From Candidatus Hebobacterum abditum (lineage in GTDB: Bacteria; Armatimonadota; Hebobacteria; Hebobacterales; Hebobacteraceae): 64,000 nucleotides of DNA. Location: positions 1 through 64,000 of the forward strand of contig JALGXW010000006.1 in assembly GCA_029821875.1 (NCBI GenBank), read 5' to 3'. Under the pieces are notes generated by a model, which worked only from the letters and a program-made list of their open reading frames with translations, had not been told where the DNA came from and ran no database searches. Within the stretch, counting starts at the first letter, position 1, and the number at the start of each line of letters is the position of its first letter. Below, piece by piece: positions 56,690-60,116 of the stretch. A program made the position numbers and the translations under genes.

Positions 56690-57733
56690 ATGACGTCTCA
56701 ACGACTTGAGGAGATCCTTGCGCGCCTCGGGCGAGCGGCCGTTCTCGTTCTGGGTGACTTCTTCCTGGACAAGTACCTCGAGATCGATCCACAACTCGAG
56801 GAGACATCGCTGGAGACCGGCCTCGCGGCTCACCAGATCGTGTCCGTCCGCTGTCAGCCCGGCGGCGCGGGGAACGTCGCCGCGAACCTGTGTGCGCTCG
56901 GCATCGGCCAGGTGCCGTGTTTCGGCCTTATCGGAGACGACGGCGAGGGCTTTGAGCTCGTCAGGGCGCTCCGCCAACTGGGAGCCAATGCGCAAGGGCT
57001 GGTTGCCGCTTCCGGACGCGTCACACCCACGTACCGCAAGCCGGTCGTTCGCATGCCCGACGGGCAGCTGAGGGAGCTAGAGCGCTTGGACAGCAAGAAC
57101 CGGGCGCCGGTCGCACGAGAGTTGGAGGAAGCGCTGCTCACGCAGCTGCGCCAGGCAGCGCCTCGCGTCGACGCCGTCATCATCCAGGACCAGGTTCAGG
57201 AACCAGACTGCGGTGTGATAACAGCGCGAGTGCGACGAGCTCTTGCCGAGCTAGCCAAGCAGCACGAGCGCGTGGTCTGGCTTGCAGACTCCCGCACGCG
57301 GGGGGCCGAGTTCCGAAACGTCATGCTCAAGTCCAATCGAGAGGAGGCCTGCGCGGCCGTCCATCCTGAGTCACCCGCGCACGACCCGGAGGGTGCTGTG
57401 TCCTGCGCGGAGGTCCTGTCCGAGCGCACAGGCGCGCCCGTATTCCTGACTCTGGGCCAATACGGAATGGTCGTGACCGGGCCCGATCGCGCGAAGCGCG
57501 TGCCGACTCTTCCGCTCTCAGGTGAAATCGACATCGTTGGGGCCGGCGACAGCGCGGCTGCGGGCATCGCATCCGCGCTGTGTGTGGGGGCAAGCCTGGC
57601 CGAGGCCGCCGTGATCGGCAACATCGTCGCGTCGATCACGGTCCAGCAGCTCGGGACGACCGGAACCGCTACCCAGCAGCAGGTGATGGCGCGCTTCGCC
57701 CAGGCTCAGGACCTCTGGGCAGACATCTCTTAG
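56690..57733 (+). CDS. PfkB-family sugar kinase (RfaE/HldE domain 1-like)
   Basis: 347 residues from ATG 56690 (AGGAGG at 10 nt). PfkB landmarks are 'VLVLGDFFLDKYLE', 'CQPGGAGNVAANLCALG', and the ATP/anion-hole motif 'VGAGDSAAAGIASALC' with the base Asp. It is like the heptose-7-phosphate kinase half of HldE, but lacks the adenylyltransferase half, so it may be a ribokinase-type enzyme for another sugar. Its stop overlaps that of the Nudix gene by 4 nt. Confidence 0.85.
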   Translation: MTSQRLEEILARLGRAAVLVLGDFFLDKYLEIDPQLEETSLETGLAAHQIVSVRCQPGGAGNVAANLCALGIGQVPCFGLIGDDGEGFELVRALRQLGANAQGLVAASGRVTPTYRKPVVRMPDGQLRELERLDSKNRAPVARELEEALLTQLRQAAPRVDAVIIQDQVQEPDCGVITARVRRALAELAKQHERVVWLADSRTRGAEFRNVMLKSNREEACAAVHPESPAHDPEGAVSCAEVLSERTGAPVFLTLGQYGMVVTGPDRAKRVPTLPLSGEIDIVGAGDSAAAGIASALCVGASLAEAAVIGNIVASITVQQLGTTGTATQQQVMARFAQAQDLWADIS

Positions 57734-58233
57734 TCGCTGAGGCGGGTGCGGAGCAGCTCCAGCGCCTCGCGCTCCCAGTTGAAGGCGATCTTCTCGGGGA
57801 GGTCGTCCAGCGGGAACCAGCGCATTGTCACGGCGTCGCTTCCCGCCTTCTCCCGCCCCCCGGCCGTCTCCGCCAGGTAGCAGATGCTGAGCGTGTAGTA
57901 ATCCGCCTCCCCATATCGATCCGTCCAGAAGCCGAGCACCTCCGTCGGCACCACCGCCAGCCCCGTCTCCTCGAGCATCTCCCGCCGCGCCGCCTCCGTC
58001 GGATGCTCGTCGGAGTTCAAGAACCCGCCTGGAATGTCCCAATAGCCCTTGAAGGGCTCGACCGCCCGTTGCACCAGCAGCACTTTCCCGCCCTCGACCA
58101 GCAGCACGCCGACGCAGGGCCGCGGGTTGTTGTAGTGCACGAACCCGCACTTCGGGCACGCCTGGAGGCGTTGTTCGTCCACCGTTCGCGCCTCTAGCTG
58201 CTCGCCGCACTCCGGGCAGAACCTATAAGCCAT
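57730..58233 (-). CDS. Nudix hydrolase with zinc ribbon (NudC-like/ADP-ribose type)
   Basis: 167 residues from ATG 58233 with GGAGGAG at 7 nt. A zinc ribbon, 'CPECGEQLEARTVDEQRLQAC' and 'CPKCG'-type pairs near residues 6-30, is followed by the Nudix box 'GGFLNSDEHPTEAARREMLEETG' (split: G-x5-E ... REMLEETG), with all metal-binding Glu present. It hydrolyses nucleoside diphosphate derivatives such as NADH or ADP-ribose. The zinc ribbon plus short size recalls the archaeal/bacterial NUDIX 'YgdP-like' group; substrate is uncertain. Confidence 0.88.
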   Translation of the reverse strand: MAYRFCPECGEQLEARTVDEQRLQACPKCGFVHYNNPRPCVGVLLVEGGKVLLVQRAVEPFKGYWDIPGGFLNSDEHPTEAARREMLEETGLAVVPTEVLGFWTDRYGEADYYTLSICYLAETAGGREKAGSDAVTMRWFPLDDLPEKIAFNWEREALELLRTRLSD

Positions 58234-58335
58234 CCACACACTCCTCCCCCGTGCTGTGCGTCTCCCATTCCGCTGCCGTCGGACCTCTCCTTCCCACCGC
58301 AACAGCGCTCCGTGGTAGCATGTACGCAGCGAACC

Positions 58336-59001
58336 ATGCGTTGTCAGAAGCTCCACGACTGGGAGGTCACACCCGAGGAGGCCGAGCGAGTCCAGCTCTC
58401 GTTGGCGAGCCGCGTCCGACGCTCGCTTGAGCGCGCCTCCCCCATCAGGCCGGCGACCGTTGCCGGCGCCGTGGTCGCGGCGCAAGCGGCCGCTGTTGCC
58501 GTCCTCCGCACGTCCGATTTGGCGGTGGTGGAGGCGAGAAGGGTCGAGTCCCCGGGGCCGTCTCCCGGCCGCATGCGCTATCGGCCGGGGCTAATGGCCT
58601 TCGCGTACGGTCCGCCTTTGCTGCAGGCCTTCGAGCTCGTTGAATCTTCCGTCGATGTCGTCATGTTCAGGGCTCACGGCATCGCCCATCCGCGGCGCCT
58701 CGGCCTGGCCGCTCACCTCGGGCTGCTGCTGGAGACGCCCTCGCTCGGGTGCGCCGATAGGGCGCTGTGCGGCGAACACGCGCCGCCCGGTGCGGAGCGC
58801 GAAGACTGGGCCGAGGTGACAGATGGAGACGAGACGATCGGGGCCTGTGTCCGCACCCGCCGCGACGCTCGCCCGCTCATCGTCTCGCCGGGGTATGCTC
58901 TCGCCCTGTACAATGCCGTCGAGGTAGTGCTCTCGACCAGTCGCGAGCACCGGATGCCGGAGCCGCTGCGCCAGGCGCGGCGTACCGCAGGAGGAGGCTA
59001 G
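58336..59001 (+). CDS. Endonuclease V-like protein with catalytic residues lost
   Basis: 221 residues from ATG 58336. It follows Thermotoga maritima endonuclease V along its whole length: 'LHDWEVTPEEAERVQ', 'RYRPGLMAF', 'AHGIAHPRRLGLAAHLGLLLETPSLG', 'IGACVRTR', 'PLIVSPGY' and 'RMPEPLRQAR'. However, the three metal-binding acids are absent: Asp43 is Val46 (VAGAVVAA), Glu89 is Tyr91 (AFAYGP) and Asp110 is Arg112 (MFRAHG). It cannot cut DNA at inosine by the known mechanism. It may still bind deaminated or branched nucleic acid. It lies 5 nt before the radical SAM gene. Confidence 0.85.
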   Translation: MRCQKLHDWEVTPEEAERVQLSLASRVRRSLERASPIRPATVAGAVVAAQAAAVAVLRTSDLAVVEARRVESPGPSPGRMRYRPGLMAFAYGPPLLQAFELVESSVDVVMFRAHGIAHPRRLGLAAHLGLLLETPSLGCADRALCGEHAPPGAEREDWAEVTDGDETIGACVRTRRDARPLIVSPGYALALYNAVEVVLSTSREHRMPEPLRQARRTAGGG

Positions 59002-59006
59002 AGCCG

Positions 59007-60116
59007 GTGGGCCGCTGCGCTCTCTGCCAGGCCGAGTCCGCAGTGATAGCGAAGGCGATCGGCCTGTGCGCGAGCTGTCTGAAGAGCGAGGCCGGTCGCG
59101 TGCTGCCACGCGCCCTGCGCGCCCATGCCGAGAGTCGTAAGGCATTCGGCCTGCCGCCGCACCCGCCGAGATCGAAGGGCGGAGTGAAGTGCGCGCTGTG
59201 CGCGAACGAGTGTGTGATTGCGCCGGGCGAGAGCGGCTTCTGTGGGATTCGCTCCAACCGAGAGGATCGGCTCACGACGGAGCGCCCGGGCTCGGCGAAC
59301 GTCTCCTGGTACCAGGATCCGCTTCCCACCAACTGTGTGGCAAGCTGGGTATGCCCGGCCGAGACGGAGGCCGGCTACCCGGACTTCACCCACACGAAGG
59401 GGCCCGAGTACGGGCACTTCAACCACGCCGTCTTCTACGAGGCGTGCTCGTTCGACTGCCTCTTCTGTCAGAACTGGCACTTCCGCGAGTCGTCGCAGAA
59501 GCGCTCCCCGGTGCCGGCGGAGCACATCGTGCGGGCGGTGGACTCCCGCACCTCCTGCATCTGCTACTTTGGCGGCGATCCAGGGCCTCAGCTTCCCCAC
59601 GCGCTTCGCGCCTCACGGCTGGCGCGGCGGCAGGTCGGTGATCGCATTCTCCGCATCTGCTGGGAGACCAATGGTTCGATGAGCCCGAAGATGCTCGATC
59701 AGATGGCTCAACTGTCGCTCGAGTCAGGAGGCTGCATCAAGTTCGACCTGAAGGCCTGGGACGAGAACTTGCAGCGCGCGCTCACCGGGGTGAGCAATCG
59801 GCGAACCTTGTCCAACTTCGCACGGGCGGCCGAGCTGATCCGCGAGCGCCCCGACCCGCCGTTGCTGATCGCCAGCACTCTGCTTGTGCCCGGCTATGTT
59901 GATGCGGAGGAGGCGGGGCAGATCGCCGCGTTTGTGGCCTCCTTCGATCCCTCGATCCCGTACTCGCTGCTGGGATTCCACCCGCAGTTCTACATGGACG
60001 ACCTGCCGATCACCTCCCGAGAGCACGCCCGGCGATGCGAGGAGGCGGCCCGCTCGGCTGGGCTCACTCGCGTGAACATCGGGAACGCACATCTGCTGGG
60101 GTCAGAATACCCGTAG
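59007..60116 (+). CDS. Radical SAM protein (AmmeMemoRadiSam/PFL-activase-like)
   Basis: 369 residues from GTG 59007 with GAGGAGG at 9 nt. Cys-rich N-terminus ('CALCQ...CASC', then 'CALCANECVIAPGESGFCGIR') precedes the radical SAM cluster Cys in 'ACSFDCLFCQNW' (CxxxCxxC), then 'CYFGGDPGP' and 'WETNG', as in the AmrS/COG1180 group. These proteins use S-adenosylmethionine and a 4Fe-4S cluster to make a radical; related loci carry an MEMO-like and an AMMECR1-like gene, which are not here. Operon partner of the endonuclease V-like gene. Confidence 0.85.
   Translation: MGRCALCQAESAVIAKAIGLCASCLKSEAGRVLPRALRAHAESRKAFGLPPHPPRSKGGVKCALCANECVIAPGESGFCGIRSNREDRLTTERPGSANVSWYQDPLPTNCVASWVCPAETEAGYPDFTHTKGPEYGHFNHAVFYEACSFDCLFCQNWHFRESSQKRSPVPAEHIVRAVDSRTSCICYFGGDPGPQLPHALRASRLARRQVGDRILRICWETNGSMSPKMLDQMAQLSLESGGCIKFDLKAWDENLQRALTGVSNRRTLSNFARAAELIRERPDPPLLIASTLLVPGYVDAEEAGQIAAFVASFDPSIPYSLLGFHPQFYMDDLPITSREHARRCEEAARSAGLTRVNIGNAHLLGSEYP

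Follow-up and report, generated by a model that had tools for sequence, protein, structure and literature searches.

An endonuclease V-like protein of Candidatus Hebobacterum abditum that appears to have lost its cutting centre and largely kept its base-reading surface

Within the 64,000 nucleotides of contig JALGXW010000006.1 that were analyzed (the window), one gene encodes a protein of the endonuclease V (EndoV) family that, judged from its sequence, is highly likely to be a pseudoenzyme incapable of metal-dependent cutting. The protein retains the wedge tyrosine and the pocket with which EndoV reads a base and has lost both the metal site and the phosphate lock, so that most of the reading part survives and the cutting part is gone. 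Evolution seems to have made a nuclease into a protein that no longer cuts and has taken on another role, because relatives in other bacteria also lack the cutting residues. An earlier note on this DNA had proposed an EndoV pseudoenzyme from the letters of the gene; that interpretation is very probably right, and the group to which the protein belongs, spanning several families and probably several phyla, goes beyond what the note could see.

The gene product matches the Pfam family Endonuclease_5 (PF04493) over its full length, with an E-value of 6.6e-45 and 153.6 bits against a cut-off of 23.4, and it matches chains of T. maritima EndoV (TmEndoV) in the PDB with E-values down to 1.5e-34. It falls below the NCBIfam equivalog cut-offs for deoxyribonuclease V and endonuclease V (160.1 versus 230 and 158.1 versus 300, respectively). 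The AlphaFold model of the protein, for which an alignment of 12 sequences served as input, has a mean pLDDT of 89.9 and a pTM of 0.88, and the closest solved structure identified by Foldseek is that of TmEndoV E89Q with inosine DNA (PDB 6ozg; TM 0.90, rmsd 1.6). The T. maritima fold and conserved blocks recognized in the earlier note are thus borne out by the family match, the PDB match and the predicted structure, and the frame is open and uninterrupted through its 221 codons, as had been claimed. The source genome (G000) contains a single EndoV match, which is the window gene. A search of the PADLOC anti-phage models at E 0.01 returned no match for the window protein or its downstream neighbor.

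Alignment to TmEndoV confirmed exactly the three replacements of metal-binding acids that had been read from the sequence (Asp43 to Val46, Glu89 to Tyr91, and Asp110 to Arg112) and revealed two further catalytic losses, Lys139 to Asp141 and His214 to Arg215 (Table 1). Lys139 and His214 lock the phosphate in TmEndoV (PMC4650699); position 214 is Asp in E. coli EndoV. For comparison we used 37 intact EndoVs, in which positions 89, 110, and 139 are invariant and Asp43 is found in all 36 sequences with a residue there; the set was chosen by these positions and by screening for DEDK, so that the invariance describes the set and is not a test. Seven columns (43, 79, 85, 88, 89, 110, and 139) are at least 90% conserved in the intact set and lost in most of the Armatimonadota members described below. 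All four of 43, 89, 110, and 139 lie among them (hypergeometric P 3e-4), a value that describes the concentration of the loss and is no independent test, since the members were picked by their catalytic columns. Across the 12 Armatimonadota members the residues at positions 112 (R, L, H, Q, or W) and 91 (V, Y, F, E, or L) vary, and the alignment of the dead members contains no newly fixed pair of acids.

Table 1 Features of the window gene and its neighbors (Tm, T. maritima numbering; dead and intact refer to the 12 Armatimonadota members and the 37 comparison EndoVs).
Feature	Position	Strand	Remarks
NUDIX hydrolase with zinc ribbon, divergent	57730..58230	-	PF00293 E 1.1e-23; PF14803
Putative pseudo-endonuclease V CDS	58336..59001	+	221 aa; ATG start, TAG stop
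Val46 for metal ligand Asp43	58471..58473	+	Alignment
Tyr82, wedge tyrosine (Tm Tyr80), flanked by Arg81 and Arg83	58579..58581	+	12/12 dead, 37/37 intact
Tyr91 for metal ligand Glu89	58606..58608	+	Alignment
Arg112 for metal ligand Asp110	58669..58671	+	Arg likewise in G001, G008, G012
AHGIAHPRRLG block	58672..58704	+	Pocket Ala113, Gly115, Gly123; kept His118 (Tm His116)
Asp141 for phosphate-lock Lys139	58756..58758	+	Asp/Glu in 9/12 dead, Lys in 37/37 intact
Arg215 for phosphate-lock His214	58978..58980	+	Arg in 11/12 dead, 0/37 intact
Radical SAM protein, downstream	59007..60116	+	PF04055 E 3.8e-16; TIGR04337 64 bits vs cut-off 220

The surface that reads the base in TmEndoV consists of Tyr80, which acts as the wedge, and a pocket of Gly83, Leu85, Gly111, Gly113, Gly121, and Leu142 that reads by backbone only (PMC4650699). 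The corresponding residues of this hypoxanthine pocket in the window protein are Gly85, Met87, Ala113, Gly115, Gly123, and Leu144, of which four are identical and two conservative; Ala at pocket position 111 is also seen in 4 of the 37 intact EndoVs. The wedge motif PYIP reads RYRP, with the tyrosine and second proline kept and both Pro79 and Ile81 replaced by arginine. Tyr80, Gly83, Gly113, His116, and Gly121 (Tm numbering) are retained in all 12 Armatimonadota members, and Gly115, His118, and Gly123 of the window protein are invariant across both the dead and the intact sets. Within the Armatimonadota group, variation is seen at Pro79 of the wedge and at Leu85 and Gly111 of the pocket, and the retention of the pocket glycines may reflect a need for folding. 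All 12 Armatimonadota members have His114, compared with 17 of the 37 intact EndoVs, and the residue is Thr in a looser group from another phylum.

Homologues were sought by scanning 14 genomes of the class, 291 of the phylum, and 397 of wider relatives. At positions 43/89/110/139/214 the window protein and its homologue from the same genus (G001, 75% identity) both read V,Y,R,D,R, and a homologue from another family of the same order (G008, 57% identity) reads A,F,R,E,R; a catalytic-site state common to independent genomes excludes chance and errors of sequencing or assembly. The remaining Armatimonadota members read A,E,R,L,T (G012, with Glu89 kept), Y,L,W,D,R (G249), A,V,H,E,R (G253), and V,V,H,Q,R (G255), and in five genomes of family f45 the residues are A or E (the alignments differ here), V, L/Q, D/Q, and R. 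The dead or near-dead EndoVs, all in open, full-length frames, total 12 with the window protein included and are distributed over six Armatimonadota families. Similarly substituted homologues, which the earlier note had suggested collecting, therefore occur within the genus, in a second family of the order, and in further families of the phylum, and the scans found no near-identical homologue that has the acids. We read more than 100 other EndoVs, from Armatimonadota and many further phyla, and almost every one has D,E,D,K together with either His or Asp at position 214.

In another phylum, 19 of 43 genomes (G365 and its relatives; L137, L160-L178) encode a looser relative with the motif NATGRDHPRRAG; this group has Phe at 43, Glu89 in nearly all members, Asn or Asp at 110, a lost Lys139, and Arg at 214. 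A third phylum also contributes looser members (G457, G473, G474, and G595). In looser members with both Asp110 and Glu89 the site is only partially lost, and these are classed as presumably dead. Outside the main group, three defective EndoVs look like separate events: one with D110S and the rest intact (G326, L138), one with I,E,N,P,Q at the five positions (G449, L219), and one that a frameshift, or else an error of assembly, has split over two overlapping frames (L157, G023:C79:31000-32300). The survey combined one-per-phylum sampling with three whole phyla and is thin, so these counts may understate the spread. Each member genome has one EndoV match, with no second, intact EndoV found, and no relative of the window protein was found among viral contigs. 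A phage or plasmid origin was considered and rejected, as the matches in phage and plasmid records are distant (<60% identity) and the three plasmid ones examined are intact. Separately, a short EndoV-like family of ~170-195 aa (L073 in G025; L212-L215 in G569, G553, G467, and G443) keeps the Asp/Glu/Asp/Lys set and is without the AHPRR block and His116 (VDGYVWLGD there), which makes it roughly a mirror image of the dead family, with the residues for catalysis kept and the recognition block altered.

Phylogenetic trees were built with the catalytic columns and those adjacent to them masked, and are unrooted. The first eight full members cluster at 99/95, and one branch splits all Armatimonadota members together with G365 from the intact EndoVs at 96/87, or at 97/91 after more of the G365 group was added. 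When the third phylum was included, the dead and looser groups stood opposite the intact EndoVs across a branch of 98/94, with G449 among the intact. The placement of G012 shifts between trees, and long-branch attraction is a possible source of the grouping of dead EndoVs; given unrooted trees, unstable inner order, and long branches, a single origin is favored rather than proved.

Selection on the gene was estimated from dN/dS, which is 0.27 against G001 (95% CI 0.18-0.38) and 0.21 against G008 (0.11-0.33, with dS near saturation); two neighboring genes in the G001 comparison gave 0.24 and 0.37, and a pair within f45 (G286-G287) gave 0.15. The ratios of the window gene are similar to those of its neighbors, and together with the substituted homologues they support the proposal of the earlier note that the gene was selected for a non-cutting function and is not decaying, though the gene is dispensable. 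Five genomes of genus g153 (G276, G281, G282, G279, and G280; L065-L068, L158) have C-terminal remnants only, some with stops. These remnants adjoin a glycosyltransferase gene, whose start overlaps the end of the EndoV gene in G277, and this overlap is probably why a remnant was kept. Six further genomes from the window's family, among them several incomplete ones, yielded no EndoV. Since some relatives lack the gene or carry it truncated, it is not essential; loss occurs, yet the copies that are retained stay constrained, under purifying selection.

The gene context names no pathway, and no repair neighbor is conserved. The GTG start of the downstream radical SAM gene lies five bases past the EndoV stop, and the two genes are probably co-transcribed. 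The mechanically called ORF of the radical SAM gene overlaps the EndoV gene, and the GTG at 59007 is its likely start; the product is kin to the AmmeMemoRadiSam enzyme, far below the model cut-off, and has extra N-terminal Cys motifs. The NUDIX ORF on the other side was listed as 57730-58485, and its true start is likely near 58230, judged from the position of the zinc ribbon; it matches the PADLOC candidate model PDC-S07, probably just through its NUDIX domain. The arrangement with NUDIX and radical SAM genes is repeated in G001 and not in other families: most of f45 has a 2-hydroxyacid dehydrogenase and glycosyltransferases nearby, and G008 has a PEBP-family protein. A conserved operon partner was therefore rejected, as the neighbors change by family.

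What such a protein does can be proposed only tentatively. The reading that we favor, to which we give slightly less than an even chance, is that the EndoV fold has been kept as a reader of nucleic acid containing inosine or branches, with arginines replacing the metal. By the EndoV route, the tyrosine would be inserted and the protein would hold either a flipped-out hypoxanthine/inosine base or a branched strand, and the positive charge of Mg2+ and Lys139 would be supplied instead by Arg215 across Armatimonadota and, in the window lineage, by Arg112 and the wedge arginines. With arginine charge in place of metal, binding could be metal-independent and long-lived. The protein might then tag or protect DNA or RNA that bears inosine or is branched, or pass it on, acting without an active EndoV partner, as none was found in member genomes; the single EndoV match per member genome also led us to reject a regulator of an active paralogue. 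In the presence of Ca2+, EndoV binds inosine and does not cleave it (PMC11273454), and TmEndoV E89Q and D110N have both been crystallized with inosine DNA. The main objection is that Ca2+ is reported to be essential for the binding of EndoV to inosine RNA (PMC11273454), so that affinity may suffer from the lost metal site unless the arginines compensate. The variability of Pro79, Leu85, and Gly111, the reported failure of human ENDOV to bind hypoxanthine DNA, the truncation or absence of the gene in relatives, and the want of a conserved genomic partner also count against a reader.

Other explanations are each less probable. The protein may no longer read nucleic acid, the fold having been co-opted as a structural or regulatory protein partner in which the pocket residues mainly hold the fold. 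This alternative, unlikely though the strongest of those considered, would account for the kept glycines and prolines, which also determine the fold, for the variable Pro79 and Leu85, and for the lack of a conserved repair neighbor; it is harder to reconcile with Tyr80 and His116, side chains of the functional nucleic-acid site that are invariant in the Armatimonadota group, and, as neighbors differ between families, no protein partner is obvious. That the site was rebuilt for another reaction, with His114, His118, and the Arg215/Asp141 pair forming a metal-free center, is suggested by the invariance of His114 in the 12 members and by the newly fixed Arg215, but His114 is common among intact EndoVs as well and is Thr in the looser group, and positions 112 and 91 vary widely, unlike a catalytic site, which leaves this explanation improbable.

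A relic under relaxed constraint that is losing its function would fit the C-terminal remnants of g153 and the six family members with no EndoV found. It is nonetheless very unlikely, because the dN/dS ratios are comparable with those of neighboring genes, the frames are open and full-length in 12 genomes of six families, and residues have stayed invariant despite high divergence. Metal ligands vary somewhat among RNase H-like enzymes, and an acidic residue at position 141 in 9 of 12 members could be taken to mean that the protein still cuts through replacement ligands elsewhere in the fold. We consider this scarcely credible, as hydrophobic, basic, or polar residues occupy the two central Asp positions, Arg being the one found at 110 in the window lineage, and acids have not become fixed as a pair elsewhere in the dead alignment.

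The general view of EndoV is that of a conserved nuclease specific for inosine, and the window protein would readily be named endonuclease V from its Pfam match; recognition of the dead members would correct annotations that credit such bacteria with a repair enzyme. A subfamily with its reading surface kept and its cutting center lost would imply that reading by itself is of enough use to be retained, and it would provide natural metal-free candidates for the capture of inosine. A more speculative extension of the reader proposal, which we hold to be doubtful, is that the dead EndoVs of Armatimonadota and of two or more further phyla form an old subfamily of metal-independent readers of inosine or branches, with arginine in place of metal and no cutting EndoV found in their hosts. 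If true, these would represent a new bacterial way of handling deaminated adenine and a natural counterpart of laboratory anti-inosine reagents. We found no description of an EndoV pseudoenzyme in the open-access library that was searched, and earlier work may exist elsewhere.

Compared with bacterial EndoV (Nfi; T. maritima 2w35/6ozg, E. coli 4xpu; PF04493), the window protein shares the fold, length, wedge tyrosine, His116, pocket glycines, and AHPRR block, and differs in the metal acids, the phosphate-lock Lys, the His or Asp at 214, and the Pro79 and Ile81 of PYIP, which are replaced by arginine. In one study the recombinant human ENDOV attached to branched DNA and left it uncut, which speaks for binding and cutting being separable; it did not bind hypoxanthine DNA, although the wedge and pocket appear conserved (PMC3489907). 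Unlike the window protein, human ENDOV retains its catalytic acids and is reported to cleave inosine RNA (PMC3741642). The anti-inosine reagent EndoVIA (PMC11273454) is likewise a case in which inosine binding by this fold is separable from cutting; there Mg2+ was swapped for Ca2+ and a metal is still needed to bind, whereas in the window protein the ligands themselves were lost by evolution.
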